From Adlercreutzia sp. ZJ176 (GTDB lineage Bacteria > Actinomycetota > Coriobacteriia > Coriobacteriales > Eggerthellaceae), in assembly GCF_011038975.1 (NCBI RefSeq), contig NZ_JAAKEC010000012.1:1-64000 (forward strand): DNA of 64,000 nt. Direction: 5' to 3'. A program made the position numbers and the translations under genes. The notes under the pieces are model-generated. The model searched no databases. It saw nothing but the letters and a program-made list of their open reading frames with translations, and was not told where the DNA came from. The stretch's first letter is position 1. Each line of letters begins with the position of its first letter. Positions 50,657-64,000 of this stretch are shown here, in pieces.

Positions 50657-51493
50657 TCAGATCTCGAACGACATCCCGTCGAGGGCCGCTTCCACGCGGC
50701 CCTCGTACTGCTCGAGCCATCTTGCCAGCTCGGCGTAGGTGATGGGCTCGTCGTAGTGCATGCACATATGCGTGAGGTAGATCTTCTTCGCGCCGAGCGC
50801 GAGCCCCTCCTCGATGCACTCCTGGATGGAGTGGTGGTCGTTCGGGCTCCAGTTGCGCTTCCAGAACGTGGCGTCGAGCGCCAGGACGTCGCAGCCGCGC
50901 ACGCGCGCGGCCGTCTCCTCGGGCAGACGCGCGGTGTCGGACGCGTAGAACATCCGCGTGCCAGGCGTGCCCGCGGCCGCGTCGCCCGGCGTCTCGATGA
51001 GGTAGCCGTAGGTTCCCGGCGCGTGCGTCACGGGGCAGGCGGTGTAGCGCACCCCGTCGAACTCGTGGACGTCGAAGGGCTCCATCACGTGCAGGTCCAG
51101 GCAGTAGGTCATGTAGTGGAACTCGCCCGCGATCCCCGAGAGCGCCGCCTCGGAGCCGAAGACGGGCATTTCTCGCTTCTGGACGAGCTGCACGAGGTAC
51201 TCGTACTCGCCGAGGCCGCCGATGTGGTCGAAGTGCGCGTGGGTGAACAGGATCTCGTCGACGTGGCGCACGTCCTCGCGCAGGAGCTGGTGGCGCGCGT
51301 CGGGCGGCGTGTCGATCACGAGCGTGGGGACGTGCCCCTCCTCGTCGGCCTGCCCGCGCACCATGACGCCGCAGTCGCCGCGGCGCAGCGCCGGGTTCGC
51401 GCGCGCCTCCTCGCAGGCGGGGCAGTCGCAGAAGAACGAGGGCACGCCGCAGCCGGCGGCGGTGCCCATGAAGGTGAAGGTGTGCTGGGGCAT
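50657..51493 (-). CDS. PhnP-like metallo-beta-lactamase fold hydrolase
   Basis: A 278-residue MBL-fold phosphodiesterase-like protein. It begins with the PhnP-type GTAAGCGVPSFFCDCPACEEARANP (structural-metal Cys22, Cys24, Cys27) and carries the metal motif THAHFDHIGG (H85, H87, D89, H90), later ligands in VTHAPGTYGYLIE, ASDTARLPEE and TFWKRNW, and THMCMHYDEP. PhnP cleaves 5-phosphoribosyl 1,2-cyclic phosphate; no other phosphonate genes are nearby, so the substrate is open. TAAGGAG precedes the start. It converges with telA and diverges from the molybdoenzyme operon. Confidence 0.87.
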   Translation of the reverse strand: MPQHTFTFMGTAAGCGVPSFFCDCPACEEARANPALRRGDCGVMVRGQADEEGHVPTLVIDTPPDARHQLLREDVRHVDEILFTHAHFDHIGGLGEYEYLVQLVQKREMPVFGSEAALSGIAGEFHYMTYCLDLHVMEPFDVHEFDGVRYTACPVTHAPGTYGYLIETPGDAAAGTPGTRMFYASDTARLPEETAARVRGCDVLALDATFWKRNWSPNDHHSIQECIEEGLALGAKKIYLTHMCMHYDEPITYAELARWLEQYEGRVEAALDGMSFEI

Positions 51494-51922
51494 GCGCTTT
51501 CTCCTTAGGGTGGAACAGTCTGCACGGGCGGGTCGACGGCGTTCGCCCATCGCGCACCCATCTCGATTATAGCCGCCTGAGCTCCACTTGTCGGAAAAGA
51601 ATAAAGGGTGGTGGCAACTACTGAACGCAATCGGTATAATCCCGTACTTGGTTAGGTGCGTCCTGTGCCGTGACGTTGGGAGAGAGCGTCTGAGCAGGGG
51701 ATAAGCCTGACCGCCGCGCTCAGCGCCCAAGCGGCGGGCATCCCGGCTCGTACCTTAGGGTGTAGGCCTTCCGGCCTTTTCCATCCTACGGGTTCGATGC
51801 CCCGAGCCCTCTTCTCGGCTACACTGTTGCGGCAATTTGCGGACATGAGGGCGCGCTCGCGCTCGCGGTGCGCTCATTCATTGGTGATGCAAGTAAGAGA
51901 CGAGAAGAAGAGGGGAAGGTAG
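51494..51922 (+). promoter_or_regulatory. Promoter and long structured leader of the molybdoenzyme operon
   Basis: TGGCAA (51612-51617) and a perfect TATAAT (51635-51640), 17 bp apart, start a transcript near 51647 with about 275 nt before the first start codon. The leader folds readily: a stem CCGCCGC/GCGGCGG nested in GGGAT/ATCCC (about 51698-51744), a GTAGG/CCTAC helix enclosing an AGGCC-TTCC-GGCCT-type hairpin (about 51762-51789), and CCGAG-CCCTCTT-CTCGG (51802-51818). It does not match the Moco motif, T-box, 6S or SRP consensus as I know them. It may be a new leader RNA or a separate small RNA. Confidence 0.5.
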
Positions 51923-54817
51923 ATGGAAATTTCCAAGACGTCGACGGGCCTCAAGGACATCCTGTGTCCTGACACCGAGTCGACTGAGGTTGACATCCAC
52001 GCCGACGGCGTTGAGATGATCAAGTCACTCTGCTACTTCTGCCATGCCAACTGCGGCGTTCTTGCCTACGTCAAGGACGGCGACGTAATTAAGATCGAGG
52101 GCGATCCTAATTACTCGAGCCAGGGCGGCCTGTGCTGCCGCGGCACCAGCGCGCTTCTGCATGTGAACCACCCGGCTCGCATCAACCACGCGCTCAAGCG
52201 CGTCGGCGAGAAGGGCGAGGGCAAGTGGGAGCAGATCGACTACGATCAGGCCATCCAGGAGGTCGCCGACCGACTCAACCAGATCAAGGCCGAGAGCGGC
52301 GCCGAGGCCGTGGCTTCGGCCGGCGGCACCACGCGCACCGACGACTGGGCGCGCCGCCGCTTCCTGAACCAGTTCGGCACGCCGAACGGCTTCCACAACG
52401 CGCTTCTGTGCTGGATCCCCACGTTCATGGCTGAGACCTGCGTGGCCGGCTGGTCGCCGTTCGAGACCGACCTGGGCGGCGCGAAGTCGCTGATCCTGTG
52501 GGGCATGAACCCGGGCGCTTCCACCTTGGGCGGCATGCACGGCTACACCGACCTGCAGAAGGCGGGTCTGAAGATCATCATGGTCGACCCGCGCTACTCC
52601 GAGACGGCCTCGAAGGCCGACCTCTGGCTGCCGCTGCGCCCCGGCTCCGACGCCGCGCTGGCGCTCGCCATGCTGCACACCATCGTGTACGGCGGCATGG
52701 CCGACTACGACTTCATCGGCAAGTGGTGCGACGGCTTCGATGACCTCATGGACCACCTGGCGCAGTACTCGCCCGAGTGGGCTGCCCCCATCACGTGGCT
52801 CGAGCCTGAGCAGATCCGCCAGGCTGCCATGATGTACGCCACCAACAAGCCCGGCTGCATCCAGTGGGGTTGCACGTGGGACCAGATCGGCCGCGCGTCG
52901 ACCACCGGCTCCCATGCGATCGCGCTTCTGCGCGCCGTCACCGGCAACCTCGACGTCCCTGGCGGCGACGGCATGCCCGGCCCGGCCCTGAACTTCCTCA
53001 CCGACGAGGAGCTCGAGCTCAACGAGTGCCTGCCCGAGGAGCAGAAGGCCAAGCAGATCAGCCGCTACAAGCTGACCTCCTGGCCCGGCTATCAGATCAT
53101 CTCCGACACCGCGCGCCGCACGTGGGGCAAGACGCTGCCCACCGAGTGGTTCTGCGAGGCCCACGGCCCGAGCGTGTTCAAGGCCATCCTCACGGGCGAC
53201 CCGTACCAGGTGCGCGCCCTCATCTGCAACGCCACCAACCCGGTGAACTCCTACGGCGACGCGAAGATGACGCTGGCCGCCCTCAAGGCCTGCGAGTTCC
53301 TCGTAGTCGTCGACTACTGGATGACCCCGACGGCGCTGTTCGCCGACTACGTCTTCCCGGCCGCCGGCGCGCTCGAGCGTCCGACCATCGTCACCCACTA
53401 CGGCGCCACCGACTCCCTCATGGGCGGCCGCCGCGCCATCCAGCCGAAGTTCGACCGCCACACCGACATGGTGTTCTGGCGCAAGCTCGGCCTGGCCTGC
53501 GGCCAGGATCCGGCGAACTGGCCGTGGGAGACCGAGGAGGAGGCCTACTACGAGGTGCTCAAGGGCATCGGATTGCCGGTCTCCAACTACAACGAGTTCG
53601 TGGACAACGTGCGCATGTACTACCCGCCGCTGCACCAGAGCAAGTTCGAGAAGAACGGCGGCTTCTGGACGCCGTCCGGCAAGGTTGAGCTGAACTCCAC
53701 CATCATGCGCCAGCTCGGCTTCCCGGGCATGCCCACCTACATCGGCACCATCGAGAACCCGATCGACACGCCTGAGCTGCTCGACGAGTACCCGATCGTG
53801 CTCACCACCGGCGGCGGCTTCATGCCGTACCACCACTCCGAGCACTTCCAGATGCAGGGCATCCGCTACCTGTACCCCGACCCGTACTTCTCGATCAACC
53901 CCGAGCTCGCCGAGAAGCTCGACATCGAGTACGGCGACTGGTGCTGGATCGAGACGCGCCGCGGCCGCATCAAGATGCGCGCGAACGTGGAGCCCGAGGT
54001 GGATCCGCGCGTGGTGTTCGCGCCGCGCGGCTGGTGGTTCCCCGAGCGCGACGGCTCGGCCGACCTCGACAACCCGTTCGGCTGCCTCGAGTCCAACGTC
54101 AACGTGCTGACCTCGGTCGACGAGGAGCACTGCGACCCGATGGGCGGCTCGTGGGCCAACCGCGGCCTGCTGTGCAAGGTGTACAAGTGCACCGAGCTCG
54201 ACCATGACTACAAGCCCGAGGACACCCAGTTCTCCATCCCGGGCAGCGTCGCCGAGCCGGGCATCCACGAGATGCCGAGCTCTCGCCCGCTGGCTCGCGA
54301 GGACATCCCGTTCGAGATGCCCCAGTACGAGGGCGGCGAGGTTCCCGAGGGCTACGACTGGGTGTGGCAGAACAACACCCTGTACCAGAAGGGCACGAAC
54401 TACAAGCTCGACGCTTCCGGCTGGCTCATCAACCCGCGCAACAAGGCGTACTACGACGCGTACACCGGCTGGCGCTACGACGCCGGCGAGGAGTGCCTCG
54501 TGGACGACGAGACGGGCAAGCGCTACACCATGGAGCGCGAGGAGATCAAGTACATGGGCGCCTACCGCCTCTATCCCGGCGCCGAGGCTCCGTACGCGGT
54601 TCCCGAGCAGCTGGTGTGGAAGGAAGAGGGCTACGCCACGCTTCCCGGCCGCGACGAGCTGATCTACGACAACAACTCCGGCTGGCTCATCAATCCCGAG
54701 ACCAACGTCTACTACGACGCCTACTATGGCTGGGCGTACGACCCCACGGCGAACTGCCTGATCGACATGGAGACTGGCAAGCGCTACACCATGGAATACC
54801 AAGAGATGGCAGAATAG
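51923..54817 (+). CDS. Molybdopterin-dependent oxidoreductase (DMSO reductase superfamily), cytoplasmic, with duplicated C-terminal module
   Basis: A 964-residue catalytic subunit. The N-terminal [4Fe-4S] motif is C37-x2-C40-x3-C44 ... C71. The probable Mo/W-ligand Cys is C163 in LLCWIP. Cofactor-binding motifs include LILWGMNPGAS, DPRYSETASKADLWLPLRPGSD and the C-terminal molydopterin-binding domain (IVLTTGGGFMPYHHSEHF ... VFAPRGWWFPE). There is no Tat signal and an in-frame TAG directly precedes the ATG, so it is cytoplasmic. Residues 832-871 and 919-958 are an aromatic-rich repeat with 28 of 40 identical (SGWLINP ... YYDAY ... ETGKRYTME), foreign to this family. It heads an operon with FeS and NrfD subunits. 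The substrate is unknown; the acetylene-hydratase/polysulfide-reductase branch is the nearest impression. Confidence 0.9.
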   Translation: MEISKTSTGLKDILCPDTESTEVDIHADGVEMIKSLCYFCHANCGVLAYVKDGDVIKIEGDPNYSSQGGLCCRGTSALLHVNHPARINHALKRVGEKGEGKWEQIDYDQAIQEVADRLNQIKAESGAEAVASAGGTTRTDDWARRRFLNQFGTPNGFHNALLCWIPTFMAETCVAGWSPFETDLGGAKSLILWGMNPGASTLGGMHGYTDLQKAGLKIIMVDPRYSETASKADLWLPLRPGSDAALALAMLHTIVYGGMADYDFIGKWCDGFDDLMDHLAQYSPEWAAPITWLEPEQIRQAAMMYATNKPGCIQWGCTWDQIGRASTTGSHAIALLRAVTGNLDVPGGDGMPGPALNFLTDEELELNECLPEEQKAKQISRYKLTSWPGYQIISDTARRTWGKTLPTEWFCEAHGPSVFKAILTGDPYQVRALICNATNPVNSYGDAKMTLAALKACEFLVVVDYWMTPTALFADYVFPAAGALERPTIVTHYGATDSLMGGRRAIQPKFDRHTDMVFWRKLGLACGQDPANWPWETEEEAYYEVLKGIGLPVSNYNEFVDNVRMYYPPLHQSKFEKNGGFWTPSGKVELNSTIMRQLGFPGMPTYIGTIENPIDTPELLDEYPIVLTTGGGFMPYHHSEHFQMQGIRYLYPDPYFSINPELAEKLDIEYGDWCWIETRRGRIKMRANVEPEVDPRVVFAPRGWWFPERDGSADLDNPFGCLESNVNVLTSVDEEHCDPMGGSWANRGLLCKVYKCTELDHDYKPEDTQFSIPGSVAEPGIHEMPSSRPLAREDIPFEMPQYEGGEVPEGYDWVWQNNTLYQKGTNYKLDASGWLINPRNKAYYDAYTGWRYDAGEECLVDDETGKRYTMEREEIKYMGAYRLYPGAEAPYAVPEQLVWKEEGYATLPGRDELIYDNNSGWLINPETNVYYDAYYGWAYDPTANCLIDMETGKRYTMEYQEMAE

Positions 54818-54829
54818 GAGGAGCTGAAC

Positions 54830-55408
54830 ATGACACGTTACGTAATGGTCATCGACCAGCGCCGTTGCATCGGCTGCCATTCCTGCACGGTTGCCTGCCG
54901 TACTTGGAATAAGCTGCCGCTCGACATCATCTACAACCCGGTCGTCACCGAGGGCGCGCAGGGCACGTGGCCGCATGTCCACAAGAGCTGGACGCCGCTT
55001 CTGTGCATGCACTGCGAGAACCCCGAGTGCGTTCCCTGCTGCCCGTCGGGCGCGAGCCAGCAGGACCCGGACGGCACCGTGTGGGTCGACCCCAAGAAGT
55101 GCCTGTCCTGCAAGGTGTGCGTGAACGCCTGCCCCTACGGCATGCGCGACGCGTCCCACCTCGAGTCCCGCCTGCACCGCTTCGTGCGCAAGTGCACCTT
55201 CTGCCGCGACAAGCGCCAGCTCGACCCGGACGCCCAGCCGTACTGCGTGCTCACCTGCCATCAGAAGGCGCGCGTGTTCGGCGATCTGGACGACCCCGAG
55301 AGCGAGGTCTCGAAGCTCATCGGCTCTGTGAAGACCGAGCGCCTCTTCGAGGAGTTCGGCACCGAGCCTCAGATCTACTACATTCCTGAGTTGGGAGGCA
55401 AGGCATAA
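54830..55408 (+). CDS. Ferredoxin-type electron-transfer subunit with four [4Fe-4S] clusters (DmsB/PsrB/NrfC-like)
   Basis: A 192-residue protein with four complete Cys groups: C13/16/19/23, C59/62/67/71, C91/94/97/101 and C122/125/139/143. This is the full DmsB-type set that passes electrons between the NrfD membrane subunit and the molybdoenzyme. There is no signal peptide, as expected for a partner of a cytoplasmic catalytic subunit. GGAGGAG precedes the ATG by 6-7 nt. It overlaps the NrfD gene by one base (TAATG). Confidence 0.93.
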   Translation: MTRYVMVIDQRRCIGCHSCTVACRTWNKLPLDIIYNPVVTEGAQGTWPHVHKSWTPLLCMHCENPECVPCCPSGASQQDPDGTVWVDPKKCLSCKVCVNACPYGMRDASHLESRLHRFVRKCTFCRDKRQLDPDAQPYCVLTCHQKARVFGDLDDPESEVSKLIGSVKTERLFEEFGTEPQIYYIPELGGKA

Positions 55409-56385
55409 TGAAGCATCATTATTGGGAACCGCCTATCGCCCTGTACCTTTTCCTGGGCGGTCTGGCTGGCGGCATTCTGTTCCTGTCCGCCATCTTCAAC
55501 ACCTTCGTGGTGCCGGGCTTTGCCGAGGTCTTCGCGATGCCCGTGCTCGTCTCGCTCGTGTGCATCGCCATCGGCTGCGTGTTCCTCGTCATCGACCTGG
55601 GCCAGCCCGGCGTGTTCTGGCGCGTGTGGACCACGGCGACCTCCATCATCAAGTGGGGCGCGACCTTCCTGGTCATCGCCGCGGTGTTCGCGCTGCTGTT
55701 CTTCCTGGCCTACCTGGGCGACGCCTGGCCGATCTTCGCGGGCCTGTCTGACCTGCTCAAGCCGGCTGCCGGCTTCTTCCTGGGCGTGGCGGGCTTCTTC
55801 GGCCTGTGCATCATGATGTACACCGGCATCATGCTCTCCACTCTGAAGGCGCATGCGTTCTGGGCGACCCCGGCCCTGCCGGTGCTGTTCACCGTGTCCG
55901 CCATCTCGACGGGCTGCGCGGCTGTCGTGCTGTCCATCGGCGGCTGGCCGGCTGAGGTGACGCTCGGCACGCTCATCGTGTCCGAGGTCGTGCTCGAGAT
56001 CCTGCACGTGGTCGACATCATCCTGGTCATCACCGAGTTCATCATCCTGATGACCATGGTGCTCTCCTTCCTGGGCGCCGGCAACGTCACTGCCAAGAAG
56101 GCTGCGAAGCGCTGGGTGTGCGGCTCCTACGCGCCGCTGTTCTGGATCGGCATGGTGCTCGTGGGCCTGGTCATCCCGTTCGCCCTGTACGTGGGCGGCT
56201 CGGGCGCCGCGTCCCAGCTCATCGCCCCCATCCTCGTGCTCATCGGCGGCTGCCTGCTGCGCTTCCTCGTGGTCAACACCGACGATCGCGCCCCCATCCC
56301 GGGCGAGATCCGCTACTACGAGCGCGTGGCGAAGCCCGACGCCGAGTTCGTGCACAAGTGGACCTACGGCGAGAACATCTTTTAG
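55408..56385 (+). CDS. NrfD/PsrC-type integral membrane subunit
   Basis: A 325-residue polytopic protein with eight to nine hydrophobic segments. It starts with the characteristic KHHYWEPPIALYLFLGGLAGG and contains DLGQPGVFWRVWT, typical of NrfD quinone-interacting subunits. It would anchor the ferredoxin subunit and molybdoenzyme to the membrane and exchange electrons with menaquinone. In Psr-type complexes the catalytic subunit is periplasmic. Here both partners lack export signals, so the complex should face the cytoplasm. A strong hairpin follows the stop. Confidence 0.92.
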   Translation: MKHHYWEPPIALYLFLGGLAGGILFLSAIFNTFVVPGFAEVFAMPVLVSLVCIAIGCVFLVIDLGQPGVFWRVWTTATSIIKWGATFLVIAAVFALLFFLAYLGDAWPIFAGLSDLLKPAAGFFLGVAGFFGLCIMMYTGIMLSTLKAHAFWATPALPVLFTVSAISTGCAAVVLSIGGWPAEVTLGTLIVSEVVLEILHVVDIILVITEFIILMTMVLSFLGAGNVTAKKAAKRWVCGSYAPLFWIGMVLVGLVIPFALYVGGSGAASQLIAPILVLIGGCLLRFLVVNTDDRAPIPGEIRYYERVAKPDAEFVHKWTYGENIF

Positions 56386-56390
56386 CGTTC

Positions 56391-56421
56391 GTTCCGCCCG
56401 TTCTGACGGAACGGGCGGAAC
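56391..56421 (+). terminator. Hairpin after the NrfD gene
   Basis: A perfect 13-bp stem GTTCCGCCCGTTC / GAACGGGCGGAAC with loop TGACG. No T-run follows, so it may be a factor-dependent terminator or an RNA-stabilising hairpin. Confidence 0.55.
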
Positions 56422-56434
56422 TGCTTGACGCTGT

Positions 56435-56535
56435 GAAGCCCTGATGCACTTCGCCTAGCCCCTTGTTTGGGGCGCGGCGCGGCGCGAAGGCCGCTTGGCC
56501 CCAAGGCGGGGCTATCCGAAGCACCTCAGGGCTTC
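56435..56535. repeat. Long imperfect inverted repeat in the NrfD to CCG-protein gap
   Basis: Paired segments: GAAGCCCTGA (56435-56444) with TCAGGGCTTC (56526-56535), TAGCCCC (56456-56462) with GGGGCTA (56508-56514), and TTGGGGC (56467-56473) with GCCCCAA (56498-56504). It forms a hairpin of about 100 nt. The remaining 56536-56744 holds no gene and no clear promoter. Confidence 0.65.
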
Positions 56536-56744
56536 TCGCTGACGTTACGAACGACAGGGGAGCTGCGATCCTTGTCGTGACATTCGTCATCGTCAGGTCT
56601 TGTTGATCTAATCTGGTGGGGTTCGGCAGGTTTTCTGTCGGGCCCCACCTGTTGCGTTCCCGAGAGGCGCGCGGCGCGCTGCCCGCAAGCGGCGGCTGAC
56701 GTCGCGCGGCGCGCTTCCCGGGAAGGCAACGAAGGGGAGGCTTC

Positions 56745-57674
56745 ATGGAGGACTACACGTTTGCGGACGCGTTGACGGGCAACGCGGTCACGTTCGACTA
56801 CCAGACGGGCGAGGCGCGCCTGGCGCGTCGCGCGGAGGGCGAGGAGCTGCCCGCGTGCACGACGCTCTTCTTCCCGGGCTGCTCGTTCATCAACTACGCG
56901 ATGCCGCTCGTGGCGGCGGTGTACGACACGCTCAAGTCGTCCGGCGCGGTCGACGGCATCTCGCTTCTGTGCTGCGGCAAGATCCTGTCCTACGAGCCCG
57001 ACGGCGACGAGGTGCGCGCGGGCTTCGAGGCCCAGCTGCGCGACCACCTCGCGAAGAGCGCGATCTCGCGCATCGTGGCGGCGTGCCCGAACTGCGTGAC
57101 CGCGCTGCGCCAGGCGCTTTCGGGCGATGAGCGCGTGGAGGGCGTCGAGATCGTGGCCCTGCCGCAGGTGCTGGCCGACCTGGGCTACCGCATCGACCGC
57201 GCCACCGTGGCCGAGCAGGTGAAGGGCGACGCCTCCGCGCCCGTGCTCCTCTGCACGCACGACTCGTGCCCCGACCGCGCCACCGGCGAGTTCGCCCGCG
57301 GCCTGCGCGCGCTTCTGCCCGAGGGGCTCTTCGCCGAGCCCGAGCACGCGCGCTCCCGCTCGCTGTGCTGCGGGTCGCTCCCGCGCGCGGCGGGCAAGTT
57401 CGAGGCGGCTGACAAGTGCGCGCGCCGAAACGGCGAGGAGGCGCTCGCGGTGGGCGCCGACGCCATCGTCACGGCGTGCATGAGCTGCACGTTCCAGCTG
57501 AACATGGCGCAGAGCTCCGTGCAGGTGGTGCACTTCCTCGAGCTTCTCTACGCGTGGCGCGTCAACTGGGCGACCGTGGGCGCGTGGATGAAGCTGCGCT
57601 TTTTGTTCGACGACACCATGGGCGTGGTCGAGGACGAGGGAAGCGGCCGCGCCTTCAAGGGCCTGGGGAGGTAG
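56745..57674 (+). CDS. CCG-domain (HdrB-like) iron-sulfur protein
   Basis: A 309-residue protein with two cysteine-rich CCG domains. The first has FFPGCSF (C46), LLCCGK (C76, C77) and ACPNC (C114, C117). The second has THDSCPDR, LCCGSLPR and ACMSC. Such paired domains in HdrB bind non-cubane [4Fe-4S] clusters and handle disulfide or thiol electron transfer. They also occur in LutA/GlpC-type proteins. It abuts the second molybdoenzyme gene by 4 nt, suggesting it feeds or drains electrons there. A GGGGAGG Shine-Dalgarno is present. Confidence 0.87.
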   Translation: MEDYTFADALTGNAVTFDYQTGEARLARRAEGEELPACTTLFFPGCSFINYAMPLVAAVYDTLKSSGAVDGISLLCCGKILSYEPDGDEVRAGFEAQLRDHLAKSAISRIVAACPNCVTALRQALSGDERVEGVEIVALPQVLADLGYRIDRATVAEQVKGDASAPVLLCTHDSCPDRATGEFARGLRALLPEGLFAEPEHARSRSLCCGSLPRAAGKFEAADKCARRNGEEALAVGADAIVTACMSCTFQLNMAQSSVQVVHFLELLYAWRVNWATVGAWMKLRFLFDDTMGVVEDEGSGRAFKGLGR

Positions 57675-57678
57675 CGCC

Positions 57679-59982
57679 ATGACACGGGAACGCAAGAGGA
57701 CCAACTGCCACTTCTGCGGCTACTGCTGCGCCTTCACGGCGACGGTGGACGAGGACGGGCGCGTGGTCGACCTCGAGCCCGACCCCACGCGCTACCCGTA
57801 CGACCCGCAGGTCCTGGCGGGGTGCCGCCGCTGGCGCATGAACCTCGACGTGCTCGACGGGGCCGACCGCGTGAACTACCCGCTGCGCCGGGTGGGGGAG
57901 CGCGGCGCGAACCAATGGGAGCGCGTGAGCTGGGACGAGGCGATCGCCGACATCGCGGCGCGCTTGAAGGCGCTCGCCGCCGCGCACGGCCCGGGCACGC
58001 TCGCGTCCATGATCGGCGGGCCGCACACGTCGTTCTGGCCGCTGCACCGCTTCATGACGTTGTTCGGCTCGCCGAACAACATGGGGATCGGGCAGATCTG
58101 CTGGAACCCGCGCATCTGGATGGACGTGCTCACCTTCGGCTGGACGGTGGAGGCCGACATCCGGCCCGAGACGGGCTGCGTGCTCATCTGGGGCACGAAC
58201 CCGGCCGAGTCCGACAACTCGCTGTTCTGGCGCAGTCTCCTTTACATCGGCAAGTCCGAGGACACCGCCCTCGTGGTCATCGACCCGCGCTTCACGCGCA
58301 CGGCGCGCGCGGCCGATCTGTGGCTCGCCCCGCGCCCCGGCACCGACTGCGTGCTCGCGCTCGGGCTTTTGAACGTCATCATCGCGGAGGATTTGGTGGA
58401 CCGCGCGTTCGTGGACGCGTGGTGCTACGGCTTCGACGAGCTGGCCGCGCACGTGGCGCGCTTCACGCCTGAGTACGCGGAGGGCGTCTGCGACGTGCCG
58501 GCCGCCGACATCGTGCGCGCGGCGCGCCTGTTCGCGGGCCCGCGCGGCGAGGGGGCCTACCCCTCGGCGCTCGTGTCGGGCCGCGGCATCGACCAGGTGG
58601 GGCGCTCGGTGGCGCCGACGCACCGCGCCATCTGCTGTTTGCGTGCCATCACGGGCAACGTGGATCGGCCGGGCGCATGCGTGCTCGCCGAGGGGAGCGA
58701 CTTCATCCCCGAGGTCGACCTCGAGCTCACGCTCGAGCACGCCGACGAGCTCTCCGCGCGCTGCCTGAACACGCCGCACACGCCCCTGCAGTGCTACGAG
58801 GGCTACGCGCACGTCGCCGCGCTCACCGAGCGCCTCGGGCGCAAGCTCCCGGCGCGCTACCTGACCTCAGCCCACCCCGACCTGGTGCTCTCAGCCATGG
58901 AGACCGGCGAGCCCTACCCGGTGCGCGCGCTTGTCGTGGAGGCCACGAACCCCCTGCTCACCTACGCCGACACGCACCGCGTGTTCGACGCGCTCATGGG
59001 GCTCGACCTCATCGTGGTGCTCGACTACTACCTGACCTCCACGGCCTCCATCGCCGACTACGTGCTGCCGGCGGCGGGCGCGATCGAGCGCTCGCTCTTC
59101 CAGGCGCACGGCGGCGTGGCCAACATGGCCTACGGCGGCCCGAAGGCGACGGACCCCTACTACGAGCGCAAGAGCGACTACGAGATCTTCCGCCTGCTCG
59201 GCTGCGCGCTCGGGCAAGAGGAGTCCTGGCCCGACGAGACGTTCGAGGACGCCATCGCGCGCACGCTCGCGCCGACGGGCATGGACTGGGACACGTACTG
59301 CCTGCTGGGCCTGTGCTATGTGCCGCCCGCCTACGAGAAGCACCTCATCCCCGGCGCCGACGGCGCCCCGCAGGGCTTCGCCACCACGACGGGCAAGATC
59401 GAGCTCGCGAGCGTCGCGCTCGAGGAGCTCGGCGGGCCGCGCCTGCCCGAGCCGGGCGAGCCGCGCCGCCTGTGCAGCCCTGAGTTCGTCGCCGCGCACG
59501 AGGCGCAGGGCTGGACGCACCTGACGCTCACCACGGGCGCGCGCAAGCAGCCCTACAACGCCTCCATGTACTTCAACAACCGCGCCTTCCGCGAGAAGGC
59601 GCCCTACCCGGTGGTGGAGATGAGCGAGGCCACGGCGCGCGACCTGGGGATCGAGAAGGGTGATTGCGTGGTCGTGGCGACGGATCAAGGCGAGGCGCGC
59701 TTCGTGGCTGATACAATACGTATGCGCGATGGTCTACTAAATGCGGACTACGGATGGTGGCATCCCGAGTGGACGCCGGGCGCGCCTGCGTTCGGCGGCA
59801 TGTGGGAGTCCAACATCAACTGCCTGACCTCGTGCTCGCTCGACCAAGGCGAGCCCATGATCGGCACGTGGTCCTACAACGCGATCGACTGCATGATAAG
59901 GAAGGACGACGCGCGCCTGAGCTGGCAGCCCGGCTTCACGCCGGAGGATGCCGCTTGCGGGGCGCAGCGTCTCGAGGATTAA
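57679..59982 (+). CDS. Second molybdopterin/tungstopterin oxidoreductase, acetylene-hydratase-like
   Basis: A 767-residue DMSO-reductase-superfamily enzyme. The N-terminal cluster motif is C10-x2-C13-x3-C17 ... AGCRRW. A probable metal-ligand Cys is C141 in QICWNPRIWMDVLTFGW, the same position number as the tungsten-binding Cys141 of acetylene hydratase. Other motifs are VLIWGTNPAESDN, DPRFTRTARAADLWLAPRPGTDC and ADYVLPAAGAIERSLFQAHG, plus a C-terminal cofactor-binding domain ending WWHPEW ... NCLTSCS. It has no Tat signal and is cytoplasmic. It is paired with the CCG protein. The substrate is not deducible; hydratase, hydroxytransferase or reductase chemistry are all possible. Confidence 0.88.
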   Translation: MTRERKRTNCHFCGYCCAFTATVDEDGRVVDLEPDPTRYPYDPQVLAGCRRWRMNLDVLDGADRVNYPLRRVGERGANQWERVSWDEAIADIAARLKALAAAHGPGTLASMIGGPHTSFWPLHRFMTLFGSPNNMGIGQICWNPRIWMDVLTFGWTVEADIRPETGCVLIWGTNPAESDNSLFWRSLLYIGKSEDTALVVIDPRFTRTARAADLWLAPRPGTDCVLALGLLNVIIAEDLVDRAFVDAWCYGFDELAAHVARFTPEYAEGVCDVPAADIVRAARLFAGPRGEGAYPSALVSGRGIDQVGRSVAPTHRAICCLRAITGNVDRPGACVLAEGSDFIPEVDLELTLEHADELSARCLNTPHTPLQCYEGYAHVAALTERLGRKLPARYLTSAHPDLVLSAMETGEPYPVRALVVEATNPLLTYADTHRVFDALMGLDLIVVLDYYLTSTASIADYVLPAAGAIERSLFQAHGGVANMAYGGPKATDPYYERKSDYEIFRLLGCALGQEESWPDETFEDAIARTLAPTGMDWDTYCLLGLCYVPPAYEKHLIPGADGAPQGFATTTGKIELASVALEELGGPRLPEPGEPRRLCSPEFVAAHEAQGWTHLTLTTGARKQPYNASMYFNNRAFREKAPYPVVEMSEATARDLGIEKGDCVVVATDQGEARFVADTIRMRDGLLNADYGWWHPEWTPGAPAFGGMWESNINCLTSCSLDQGEPMIGTWSYNAIDCMIRKDDARLSWQPGFTPEDAACGAQRLED

Positions 59983-59994
59983 GGAGCATAGCAA

Positions 59995-60858
59995 GTGGCA
60001 GAGAAAAAGCAAGCGCTGCTGGTGTTCAGCAAGCCGCCCATCCCGGGCATGGTGAAGACGCGCCTGACCGTGAAGCACGGCGGCTTTTTGACCGACGAGC
60101 AGGCCGCCGAGTTCTTCAGGCGCAGCCTGTACGACGTGTGCGAGGCGTCCATGCACGCGCTCATCGAGATGCAGCGCGCCAACGACGCGCTCGTGGAGGC
60201 CGACCCCACCGCCGACAAGATCACCTACGACTTCTTCGTGTCCACCACGCCGGCCAAGAACGTCGAGCTCATGAAGGAGACGTTCGACGCCATCGGCCCG
60301 TGGCCCATGGAGATCCACTACCTGACCGACGCGGGCGCCACGTTCGACGACCACTTCGACGACGCCTTCAAGCAGATCTTCGACCTGGGCTACGAGCACA
60401 TCGTGTCCGTGGGCGGCGACATCCCCACCATGCCGAAGTCGCACATCACGCAGGCGTTCCAGTGGCTCGACTACTTCCAGTCGCTCGGCACGCCGGGCTT
60501 CGTGCAGGCGCCGTGCCAGGAGTGCGGCACGTCGCTCGTGGGCTTCAGCTACAACACGCCCATCAACCACCAGGGCGTGTACTACAACCTCGACGGCAAG
60601 CCGGCGCTCGACGCCTACATGGAGAAGACCGAGGCGGCAAACATCCCCACGGCGTACTTCTCGCCCGTGGCCGACATCGACGAGAAGACCGACCTCGCGC
60701 ACGCCATCTCGTGCATGAACGCCATCAAGCAGGCGGCGAAGTTCCAGAACGAGCTCTTCGTGCCGCAGCGCGTGCTCGACTGGGTGAACATCATGGGCAT
60801 CCGCGTGTCCACGCCGCCCAACGACGAGCACGACCCGCGCCAGTACATCGACGAATAG
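59995..60858 (+). CDS. TIGR04282/DUF2064-type glycosyltransferase-like protein
   Basis: A 287-residue protein with the family opening ALLVFSKPPIPGMVKTRLT, then HYLTDAGATFDDHFDDAFKQIFDLGYEHIVSVGGDIPTM. The latter is a GT-A nucleotide-sugar fold with a DxD-like acidic patch. Some members make arsenosugars or act on cofactor precursors; the true donor and acceptor here are unknown. GTG 59995 is preceded by AAGGAG and lies 12 nt after the molybdoenzyme, so it is in the same operon. The extended C-terminus (residues 200-287) is unusual. Confidence 0.78.
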   Translation: MAEKKQALLVFSKPPIPGMVKTRLTVKHGGFLTDEQAAEFFRRSLYDVCEASMHALIEMQRANDALVEADPTADKITYDFFVSTTPAKNVELMKETFDAIGPWPMEIHYLTDAGATFDDHFDDAFKQIFDLGYEHIVSVGGDIPTMPKSHITQAFQWLDYFQSLGTPGFVQAPCQECGTSLVGFSYNTPINHQGVYYNLDGKPALDAYMEKTEAANIPTAYFSPVADIDEKTDLAHAISCMNAIKQAAKFQNELFVPQRVLDWVNIMGIRVSTPPNDEHDPRQYIDE

Positions 60859-60958
60859 GCTCCGCTTGGCCTGAAAGAACAGGCGAAACGGCTCGACGCC
60901 GCGGCTTCGTGCGCCAACCTGTGGCGAGTGCTTTGTTGAGAGGACAAGGAACAGCAAG

Positions 60959-62281
60959 TTGAAACTACTTCACAAAACCGGGGCCCTGTGCCCGACGTGC
61001 TTGAAGGAGCTGCCGGCCGAGGTGTACGCCGACGAGGCGGGCGTGGTGTGGATGGGCCGCACCTGCCCCGAGCACGGGCGGCTCGACACGCGCATGTGGC
61101 CCGACGCCGCGCACTACGAGTGGCTGCGCTCCGAGGCATTTCCCAAGACCAAGCCGGTGAACACCGAGCCCGTCAAGGGGCCGTGCCCGTTCGGCTGCGG
61201 CACGTGCGCGCGCCACGAGCGCCGCGGCACGCTGCTCGAGATCGAGGTCACGCGCAACTGCAACCTGCGCTGCCCCGTGTGCTTCGCGAGCGCCGAGGGC
61301 GGGGAGGACGACCCCACGCTCGAGGAGATCTCGGCGATGTACGACGTCATCGCGCGCGCGGTGGGGACCGACGGCGCCGTGCAGATCACGGGCGGCGAGC
61401 CCACGTGCCGCAAGGATCTGGTCGACATTATCTACCAGGGGCGAGAGAAGGGCTTCTGGGGCATCGAGGTCAACACGAACGGCCTGGTCATCGCCAACCG
61501 GGAAGGGTATCTGGAAGACCTCGTGGGCGCGGGCCTCACGGGCGTGTACCTGTCGTTCGACGGCCTGACCGGCGACGTGTACGAGGCCACGTGCGGGCGC
61601 GACATCCTCGACATGAAGCTGCGCGCCATCGAGCGCTGCCGCGAGGTGGGCATCCAGGTGGTGCTCTCCGTGGCGGTGGTCGCGGGCGTGAACGACGGCC
61701 AGCTCGGCGACCTTCTGCGCTTCGCGCTCGAGAACTCCGACGTGGTCGCGGGGCTGGCCCTGCAGCCGGCGTTCACCTCGGGCCGCTTCGACGCCGAGCG
61801 CGCCCTGCCCATGAGCGCGGGCGACGTGATCTTCTCGCTGGCCGAGCAGTCCGACGGGCTGCTCGAGGTGCGCGACATCTGGCCTTTGGGCTGCTCGAAC
61901 CCGCTGTGCGACACAGGCGTCTTCCTGGTGAAGAGCGACGACGCGGAGCACGGGAGCGGCTTCTACCCGGCCACGCGCCGCATGACCATGGAGGAGTACG
62001 CAGAGGGCTACAGCCCCGACTCCCCGCAGGGCTCGGTGTTCCAGGACATCCTGTACAAGAAGGGCGTCGAGGTGAAGACGGGCCTGTCGGTCATCATCAT
62101 GAACTACATGGACGCGGTGTCGATGGACACGCAGCGTCTGCGCGAGTGCTCGATGATGGTGACGGTGCCCGACGGCCGCGCCATCCCGTTCTGCTCCTAC
62201 CACCTGACGGACGCCGCCGGCAAGCGCGTGTACCCGCCCTGGTGCAAGGAGGAGCTGCGCGGGGTGGGGGACCGGCACTAG
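60959..62281 (+). CDS. Radical SAM enzyme of the Tes/MJ0619-like group
   Basis: A 440-residue radical SAM protein. The N-terminal zinc-ribbon-like region (LCPTCLKELPAEVYADEAGVVWMGRTCPEHG) is characteristic of the MJ0619/tetraether-synthase-like group. The SAM cluster motif is C101-x3-C105-x2-C108 in TRNCNLRCPVC, followed by the GGE motif QITGGEPTCRKDL and VNTNGLVI. Extra Cys (PLGCSNPLCD, PFCSYH, PPWC) may hold auxiliary clusters. The start is a TTG 9 nt after AGGACAAGGA. It sits between the glycosyltransferase and the ferredoxin-DUF169 gene; the product is unknown. Confidence 0.85.
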   Translation: MKLLHKTGALCPTCLKELPAEVYADEAGVVWMGRTCPEHGRLDTRMWPDAAHYEWLRSEAFPKTKPVNTEPVKGPCPFGCGTCARHERRGTLLEIEVTRNCNLRCPVCFASAEGGEDDPTLEEISAMYDVIARAVGTDGAVQITGGEPTCRKDLVDIIYQGREKGFWGIEVNTNGLVIANREGYLEDLVGAGLTGVYLSFDGLTGDVYEATCGRDILDMKLRAIERCREVGIQVVLSVAVVAGVNDGQLGDLLRFALENSDVVAGLALQPAFTSGRFDAERALPMSAGDVIFSLAEQSDGLLEVRDIWPLGCSNPLCDTGVFLVKSDDAEHGSGFYPATRRMTMEEYAEGYSPDSPQGSVFQDILYKKGVEVKTGLSVIIMNYMDAVSMDTQRLRECSMMVTVPDGRAIPFCSYHLTDAAGKRVYPPWCKEELRGVGDRH

Positions 62282-62432
62282 GGGACTGGCACTAGGGCCG
62301 GTGCGAACGTGAGCGCGCCCGGGGGCCGCGGAGAGGCGCGGCGCTCGGGCTTCGACCCGCCGCCTGGGGCGGCAGGGCCTCGGCGGCGCAACGGCAGGAA
62401 TTCGACGGCAGAGCGACGAGACGAGAGGCGCT

Positions 62433-63458
62433 ATGGACAAAAACGAGCAGAAGGCGCTGTGGGACGCGCAAGACATCGCGAGCGAGACCGCCTACGCGGT
62501 GACCAACGACCCGACCCGCTGCGTGCAGTGCGGCCTGTGCGTGGCGTTCTGCCCGTGCGACGTGCTGGAGCTTGACGAGGAGGGCTACCCCTACGCGGCG
62601 CACATCGACAATTGCGTGGGCTGCACCACGTGCGCGGGGAACTGCCCGCAGCGCGCGCTTCTGGTGGAGGCGCAGGGCGACGCCACCTTCGACCCGCTCG
62701 CCGACGAGCCGCGCGCCGAGCCGATCTCCGACGAGCTGCGCGCGCAGTACGCGGAGTGGCAGCGCGTCATCATGGAGAAGCTCGGGCTGCGCTGGCAGCC
62801 GGTGGCGGTGAGCCTCATCGACAAGGACGAGCCTCTGCCCGAGGCCCCTCTGCCGCCTGAGAACCTGCGCTTCTGCCAGGCCATGATGGCCGCGCGCCGC
62901 GGCACGTCCATCCTCATGCCGCCGTATCGCCACGCCTGCCCCGACGGCACGTCCATCTTCGGCATGACCGGCGTGCCCGAGAAGCTGGCCACGGGCGAGA
63001 TCTACGTGCTGTTCCACAAGCTGGTGAACGCGGAGGCCGCGGCGCGCATGGTGGCCGAGCGCCCCACGCTCGAGCCGAAGAGCCGCCGCGCCACCTACGT
63101 GGCGCCGCTCGACAAGACGGTGCGCGAGCCCGAGGTGGTGGTGTTCACGGGAACGCCCGAGCAGATGATGTGGCTGTGCATGTCCATGAGCTACTACACG
63201 GGCCACCGCTTCGACTTCCACGCGAGCGGCTACAACTCCATGTGCGTGGAGGCGGTGCTCTACCCCCTGCTCGAGCAGCAGCCCAACATCACGTTCGGCT
63301 GCTACGGCTGCCGCGCGGCCACCGACCTGAGCGAGGACATGATGTTCATGGGCGTGCCCACCGCGGTGCTCCCCACGGTGGTCAAGGGCCTGACCGAGCT
63401 GGCGAAGAAGTCCATCCCGCACTCCCGCATGAAGATCTACGTCCCGCCCATCATGTAG
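62433..63458 (+). CDS. Ferredoxin-DUF169 fusion protein
   Basis: A 341-residue protein. Residues 25-80 are a 2[4Fe-4S] ferredoxin (C30/33/36/40 and C61/64/67/71). The rest is a DUF169 domain (LRWQPVAVSLIDKDEPLP ... RFCQAMMAARRGTSILMP ... GCYGCRAATDLSEDMMFMGVP) with further Cys. DUF169 proteins are found in anaerobes near radical SAM and redox genes, but no activity is established. A 150-bp gap separates it from the radical SAM gene; no separate promoter was recognised. The Shine-Dalgarno is weak (GAGAGGCG). Confidence 0.85.
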   Translation: MDKNEQKALWDAQDIASETAYAVTNDPTRCVQCGLCVAFCPCDVLELDEEGYPYAAHIDNCVGCTTCAGNCPQRALLVEAQGDATFDPLADEPRAEPISDELRAQYAEWQRVIMEKLGLRWQPVAVSLIDKDEPLPEAPLPPENLRFCQAMMAARRGTSILMPPYRHACPDGTSIFGMTGVPEKLATGEIYVLFHKLVNAEAAARMVAERPTLEPKSRRATYVAPLDKTVREPEVVVFTGTPEQMMWLCMSMSYYTGHRFDFHASGYNSMCVEAVLYPLLEQQPNITFGCYGCRAATDLSEDMMFMGVPTAVLPTVVKGLTELAKKSIPHSRMKIYVPPIM

Positions 63459-63615: not shown

Positions 63616-64000
63616 ATGGCATCTGGGCAGCTTTTCACGTTGCGCCCCGCCGAAGAGCGGGATCGCGCCTACCTTGACTCGTACACCTACGCCGAGGGCA
63701 TGGACTACCTGCCCTCGCTCGAGAACGTGACGGTGGCGGCGAACGACGCCGACGAGCCGGTGGGCTTCATCCGCATCGCGCAGGGCGCCAACGGGTTCGC
63801 GCACGTGAACCCCGTGGTGGTGTACGAGAGCTGGCGCGGGCACGCCGTGGGGCGCGCGCTCGTGGACGACGCGCAGCGCACGTTCGGCGAGCTGCGGCTC
63901 GTGGCGCGCGGCGCGTCGAAGCCGTTCTACGACGCGCTGGGCTTTACGTGCTGCGCGTGGGACGAGGTGGACGTGAGCGTCACCGAGGACTGCGACGGCT
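63616..64000 (+). CDS. GNAT family N-acetyltransferase (truncated by window end)
   Basis: From ATG 63616 (GGTGAGG upstream) an open frame runs off the window, giving 128 residues starting ASGQLFTLRPAEERDRAYLDS. The segment VGFIRIAQGANGFAHVNPVVVYESWRGHAVGRALVDDAQ is the GNAT acetyl-CoA-binding motif A region, and ASKPFYDALGFTCC is the usual motif B. The substrate is unknown. Confidence 0.8.
   Translation, partial: MASGQLFTLRPAEERDRAYLDSYTYAEGMDYLPSLENVTVAANDADEPVGFIRIAQGANGFAHVNPVVVYESWRGHAVGRALVDDAQRTFGELRLVARGASKPFYDALGFTCCAWDEVDVSVTEDCDG

Follow-up and report, generated by a model that had tools for sequence, protein, structure and literature searches.

The window analysed here is a 64,000-nucleotide stretch of Adlercreutzia sp. 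ZJ176 (contig NZ_JAAKEC010000012.1, positions 1 to 64,000), taken from a 2.7 Mb genome of the Coriobacteriia (G000). It carries a locus for two molybdenum/tungsten (Mo/W) enzymes, MoA and MoB, together with a radical SAM enzyme (rSAM) and several further proteins. On the basis of the open reading frame list and Pfam/NCBIfam searches, eight genes run in one direction at 51923-63458 on the + strand, in the order MoA, Fd4, NrfD, CCG, MoB, GT (DUF2064), rSAM and ferredoxin-DUF169. This agrees with the first-pass annotation, which had reported these eight co-directional genes with the same domains at this place. As a description of the full set, eight genes is too narrow, since a divergent MBL-fold gene and a GNAT gene had been overlooked. 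Both are conserved members, and the system comprises at least ten genes. The features are as follows.

50657..51493 (-): MBL-fold metallohydrolase (Lactamase_B_2, PhnP/GPMC-like; Pfam/NCBIfam), divergent from MoA, start likely 51493
51566..51640 (both strands): divergent promoter-like sites between the MBL-fold gene and MoA (TATAAT, 10/12 matches, consensus match only)
51923..54817 (+): MoA, DMSO-reductase-superfamily Mo/W enzyme of 964 amino acids, acetylene-hydratase clade, with C-terminal OCRE-type repeats
54830..55408 (+): Fd4, four-cluster ferredoxin subunit (NrfC/DmsB type; domain search)
55408..56385 (+): NrfD, quinone-interacting integral membrane subunit
56745..57674 (+): CCG, HdrB-like protein with two complete CCG motifs
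57679..59982 (+): MoB, second Mo/W enzyme of 767 amino acids, motif GIGQICW including the metal-ligand Cys
59995..60858 (+): GT, DUF2064/TIGR04282-like transferase, CofC/MobA-type fold family, GTG start
60959..62281 (+): rSAM, Tes/TrsS-like, with rubredoxin and auxiliary-cluster motifs, TTG start
62433..63458 (+): 2[4Fe-4S] ferredoxin-DUF169 fusion, four invariant Cys in the DUF169 part
63617..64000 (+), on to contig position 64065 past the window end: Cys-rich GNAT-family protein, ninth gene of the + strand

The description of short gaps or overlaps throughout applies within two blocks only. MoA and Fd4 are 12 bp apart, Fd4 and NrfD overlap by 1 bp, CCG and MoB are separated by 4 bp and MoB and GT by 12 bp. 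Elsewhere the spacing is wide, with 359 bp between NrfD and CCG, 100 bp between GT and rSAM and 151 bp between rSAM and DUF169. Opposite MoA, a 1078-amino-acid antisense open reading frame (52025-55261, -) was treated as a G+C-rich artefact.

The distribution of the genes over 298 Coriobacteriia genomes indicates which of them belong together. A GT orthologue occurs in 32 of these genomes, with one further partial paralogue (G266), and MoB, called at an E value of at most 1e-130, is present in exactly the same 32, including two genomes (G291, G297) where it lies on a separate contig. The Fisher p value of this co-occurrence is about 1e-43, inflated by shared ancestry. MoA was found in 30 of the 32 (absent from G136 and G270) and in no genome lacking MoB. 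Carriers and non-carriers are mixed within four genera (g3, g4, g6 and g37). Accordingly, the last three genes, GT, rSAM and DUF169, are not independent neighbours, and their obligate partner is MoB rather than MoA. The pattern points to a core of MoB with GT, rSAM, DUF169, GNAT and CCG, which MoA-Fd4-NrfD accompanies almost always. A second DUF2064 paralogue (36-45% identity; L063-L071) was seen in 25 of the 32 operon genomes, and in partial form in one other, in no fixed neighbourhood.

About two dozen of the 32 GT-carrying genomes have the eight genes in this order, across the Eggerthellaceae and in other families (f4 and f11 included), and in 80 named loci the order was identical wherever the contig was long enough, with few exceptions. 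A gene order shared over so many genera is far beyond chance. Outside the class, three Anaerolineales loci of the Chloroflexota (L143, L144, L148) and one of the Peptococcaceae (L152) hold the set with rSAM relocated between CCG (or NrfD) and MoB. This constancy of content under a shifting order argues for selection on the gene set. The conservation check proposed at the outset, within Coriobacteriia and beyond, thus found order kept in the class and the set kept outside it; the loss of synteny named beforehand as the finding that would count against the cluster did not occur. A wider Anaerolineales sample of 91 genomes had GT in 1, which makes the system a rare one in that order, and plasmid searches returned distant relatives only. 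Downstream of the set, the Peptococcaceae locus continues into moeA-, moaB/mogA- and moaA-like genes (read from sequence), and L143 into genes for a flavin reductase, an ABC ATPase, a CbiQ-type transporter subunit and FmdE (Pfam).

In a group of Coriobacteriales metagenome-assembled genomes (MAGs), GT-rSAM-DUF169-GNAT stands alone at the locus. Among those checked, a MoB orthologue lies elsewhere in the genome in seven (G291, G297, G306, G307, G309, G310, G311), and G308 showed a MoA orthologue only, with no MoB found. Adlercreutzia sp. ZJ473 (L074) carries an rSAM 97% identical to that of the window. In Gordonibacter pamelaeae 7-10-1-b (L091), about 8 kb is inserted between rSAM and DUF169 and the MoB matches fall in three pieces, which suggests that the operon may be broken in that strain.

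The two added members are conserved in the same manner. GNAT, found by clustering neighbour genes across loci, directly follows DUF169, and in G270 (L062:5274-7022) it is fused to a dicluster CCG protein. The MBL-fold gene was seen in 46 loci, and in Anaerolineales it is the gene immediately before MoA, in the same orientation, with 41% identity. Taken together, the locus is a real, conserved and uncharacterised system, inherited as a unit in three phyla.

Both Mo/W enzymes find their best PDB match in acetylene hydratase (2E7Z; E 3e-99 for MoA and 2e-86 for MoB). The metal-ligand Cys (LCW or ICW motif) and four Fe-S Cys (CxxC..C..C) are kept in each, and the position of the catalytic Asp13 of acetylene hydratase is His in the aligned MoA orthologues and Gly in those of MoB. 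MoA and MoB each form one clade with 100% SH-aLRT support that spans phyla, apart from acetylene hydratase and from six other paralogues. The catalytic motifs vary hardly at all among 57 MoA, 84 MoB, 109 rSAM and 95 DUF169 sequences. With MoA, Fd4 and NrfD, the locus holds a set of catalytic, four-cluster ferredoxin and NrfD subunits. The N-termini of MoA, Fd4 and MoB, read directly, bear no Tat or signal peptide, which upholds the earlier description of a cytoplasmic Mo/W cluster. The OCRE-type aromatic repeats of MoA (PF17780) occupy 54200-54817; MoA of Anaerolineales and of G022 is about 200 amino acids shorter and lacks this extension. Slackia sp. ZJ119 has a second MoA-Fd4-NrfD copy (57/57/37%) without MoB (L201:7150-10864, G271:C17).

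The nearest solved structure to rSAM is the tetraether synthase Tes/GDGT-MAS (MJ0619, 7TOL; E 1e-73). Its rubredoxin site, N-cluster motif CxxxCxxCxxH and radical SAM (RS) motif CxxxCxxC are those described for Tes/GDGT-MAS (PMC9433317). All three were present in 109 of 109 rSAM sequences, and a C-terminal Cys motif was present in 96. The protein falls below the family cut-offs of TrsS (NF045646, 490 bits), with 347 bits for the window and 399 for Anaerolineales, and of Tes (NF045702, 450 bits), with 295 bits. In the tree, rSAM forms its own single clade across phyla. In the CCG protein of the window both motifs are complete (C46..C76C77..C114xxC117 and C175..C208C209..C245xxC248), and the first was present in 73 of 73 relatives.

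Triads of an rSAM, a dicluster CCG protein and a molybdoenzyme recur in G022:C2 (a true TrsS with a xanthine-oxidase (XO)-family enzyme), G000:C22 and G271:C6. The first (L198) is a full Trs-type cluster with an XO-family Mo enzyme, a PNDO/dicluster protein, a methyltransferase, TrsS (652 bits), an AMP ligase and XdhC-like, MobA-like-HD, MoeA-, MOSC- and MoaA-like genes. The second (L196:2843-14836) is a separate module of the window genome, with a MoA-like enzyme (37%), a dicluster CCG protein, a Tes/TrsS-like rSAM (43%), a B12-type rSAM and NuoF- and NuoG-like genes; the names in L198 other than TrsS, and the last three in L196, were assigned from sequence only. The rSAM, CCG and MoA-like genes of this module recur in Slackia sp. 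ZJ119 (L197).

GT meets the Pfam cut-off of DUF2064, but with 61 bits it stays below the 134-bit cut-off of TIGR04282 (arsenosugar transferase). In its earlier name, TIGR04282-type glycosyltransferase, the word "glycosyltransferase" is accordingly a family label only. The DUF169 part (PF02596; 187 bits against a Pfam cut-off of 27) was compared with the PDB by Foldseek and VIA-align with no convincing match (best Z 4.0); two AlphaFold models were confident, with predicted local distance difference test (pLDDT) values of 88.6 and 93.5. Among the papers searched, none joins DUF169 with Eggerthella, and one open paper gives no more than the name of TrsS. In PMC5322559, STRING data connect YedE in Slackia to a glycosyltransferase and to DUF169, a link on which that paper does not comment.

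Considering that MoB and GT share the same 32 genomes, that MoA occurs only with MoB, and that the order is kept in the class and the set across phyla, we consider that the locus may encode one co-inherited anaerobic small-molecule redox pathway of at least ten genes centred on MoB, a reading that we put at about even probability. The single clades of MoA, MoB and rSAM across phyla, the GNAT-CCG fusion and the near-invariant catalytic motifs argue in the same direction. In such a pathway rSAM, the DUF2064-type transferase, ferredoxin-DUF169, GNAT and the MBL-fold protein would build or modify a small molecule, ferredoxin-DUF169 and CCG would supply or take electrons, and MoB would transform the molecule in the cytoplasm. 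The cytoplasm-facing MoA could act much as a respiratory reductase does and catalyse a linked redox step, with Fd4 and NrfD connecting it to the menaquinone pool. Several points weigh against this pathway. The gaps of 100-359 bp allow several transcripts, the absence of MoA from G136 and G270 means that MoA is not essential to the core, the co-occurrence counts are inflated by shared ancestry, and a cofactor role fits the same facts. The first-pass annotation had proposed that the last three genes make or process a cofactor or substrate for the oxidoreductases. Their functional membership with these enzymes is borne out by synteny and co-occurrence; as to what the small molecule may be, we consider a substrate or product somewhat more likely than a cofactor.

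The alternative that fares best, which we regard as tentative, is that rSAM, the MobA/CofC-like transferase, DUF169 and GNAT mature MoB, by a modified Mo/W-pterin dinucleotide or an enzyme modification needed by MoB only. The exact MoB-GT co-occurrence and the place of the transferase within the CofC-like TIGR04282 family are consistent with this, as are the similar triads beside other Mo enzymes: TrsS of G022 stands with an XO-family enzyme and XdhC-, MobA-, MoeA- and MoaA-like genes, and the triad of G000:C22 with another MoA-like enzyme. The run of the Peptococcaceae locus into MoeA- and MoaA-like genes would also agree, but such genes adjoin many Mo enzymes. Moreover, the pterin-methylase assignment of MJ0619 has been withdrawn and replaced by one in lipid coupling (PMC9433317), and neither GNAT nor an MBL hydrolase is expected in cofactor maturation. 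A bolder proposal, which we hold to be doubtful, is that rSAM, the DUF2064-type protein as a nucleotidyltransferase, DUF169 and GNAT make a modified Mo/W-pterin cofactor of a kind not known before, or another new redox cofactor, for MoB alone. Tes-like rSAM, dicluster CCG protein and molybdoenzyme would then form a general maturation module, of which three or more arrangements have been seen.

Organoarsenic (arsenosugar-type) metabolism, with ArsM/ArsS encoded elsewhere in the genome, is improbable. Within family f1 an ArsS-type rSAM occurs in 23 of 28 operon genomes and in 0 of 48 others. SelD is independent of the operon in that family (p 0.63), so selenium does not explain the association; dependence of the operon on selenium was itself rejected on the same result. 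ArsS or an ArsM-ArsS fusion lies near the operon in G022 and G136, GT is distantly related to TIGR04282, and GNAT of Anaerolineales is a weak ArsN2 match (34 bits). However, this is below the ArsN2 cut-off of 125 and the window GNAT gave no match, and no ArsS was found in the three Anaerolineales and one Peptococcaceae carrier genomes. Four of the five ArsS-negative carriers (G009, G211, G270, G271) belong to mixed-presence genera, and the link may therefore reflect shared ancestry. Accordingly, despite the strong correlation within f1, the arsenosugar link was set aside for want of ArsS in the four out-of-class genomes, and the ArsS association is a lead only. ArsM-ArsS fusions (G000:C48:72994, G000:C6:10121 and many relatives), frequently accompanied by a CobW-like GTPase and a further ArsM, are restricted within f1 to operon-carrying genomes.

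That MoA-Fd4-NrfD is simply a reductase of the ordinary catechol-dehydroxylase type, and the other genes are unrelated passengers, is very improbable, being already largely refuted by the perfect co-inheritance of MoB and GT and by the cross-phylum set; the operon also has no LuxR or MFS gene. Lipid coupling, in which rSAM would join alkyl chains like Tes, is the least probable, since the relation to Tes and the kept rubredoxin, N-cluster and RS-cluster motifs stand against a score of 295 bits for a cut-off of 450, a cluster with no lipid-biosynthesis gene and partners that are cytoplasmic Mo/W enzymes.

According to the discoverers of Tes, some bacteria that are not known to produce tetraether lipids have homologues of it (PMC9433317), and one such homologue now has a fixed partner set. 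DUF169 gains its first defined pathway context, as far as could be found. The hosts include culturable Gordonibacter, Ellagibacter, Paraeggerthella, Raoultibacter and Slackia. Since gut Eggerthellaceae use molybdoenzymes of related kinds to transform drugs and polyphenols, a Mo/W pathway that is conserved in these bacteria and still uncharacterised merits direct test.

Compared with known systems, MoA and MoB share with acetylene hydratase of Pelobacter acetylenicus the Cys that binds the metal and the four that hold the Fe-S cluster, but not its catalytic Asp13. The catechol dehydroxylases of Eggerthella and Gordonibacter (Dadh, Cadh, Hcdh, Eadh) are likewise bis-molybdopterin guanine dinucleotide enzymes nearest acetylene hydratase, whereas MoA and MoB form clades of their own in a tree whose comparison set was acetylene hydratase and six unnamed Eggerthellaceae and Chloroflexota paralogues. 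Here, moreover, two cytoplasmic enzymes stand together with rSAM, DUF2064, DUF169 and GNAT partners, also in Chloroflexota and Peptococcaceae, and without a LuxR or MFS gene in the operon. The make-up of catalytic, four-cluster ferredoxin and NrfD subunits is that of PsrABC/DmsABC-type complexes, but MoA lacks a Tat signal, faces the cytoplasm and is accompanied by extra genes. With Tes/GDGT-MAS, rSAM has the cluster motifs in common, but its score is below the cut-off, and the partners and organisms differ. The Trs cluster of G022:C2 also places a Tes-like rSAM beside a dicluster CCG protein, a nucleotidyltransferase-like gene and a molybdoenzyme; it differs in that its molybdoenzyme is of the XO family and that it includes a methyltransferase, an AMP ligase and an XdhC-like gene, and it has neither the DUF169 nor the GNAT that mark the present locus.
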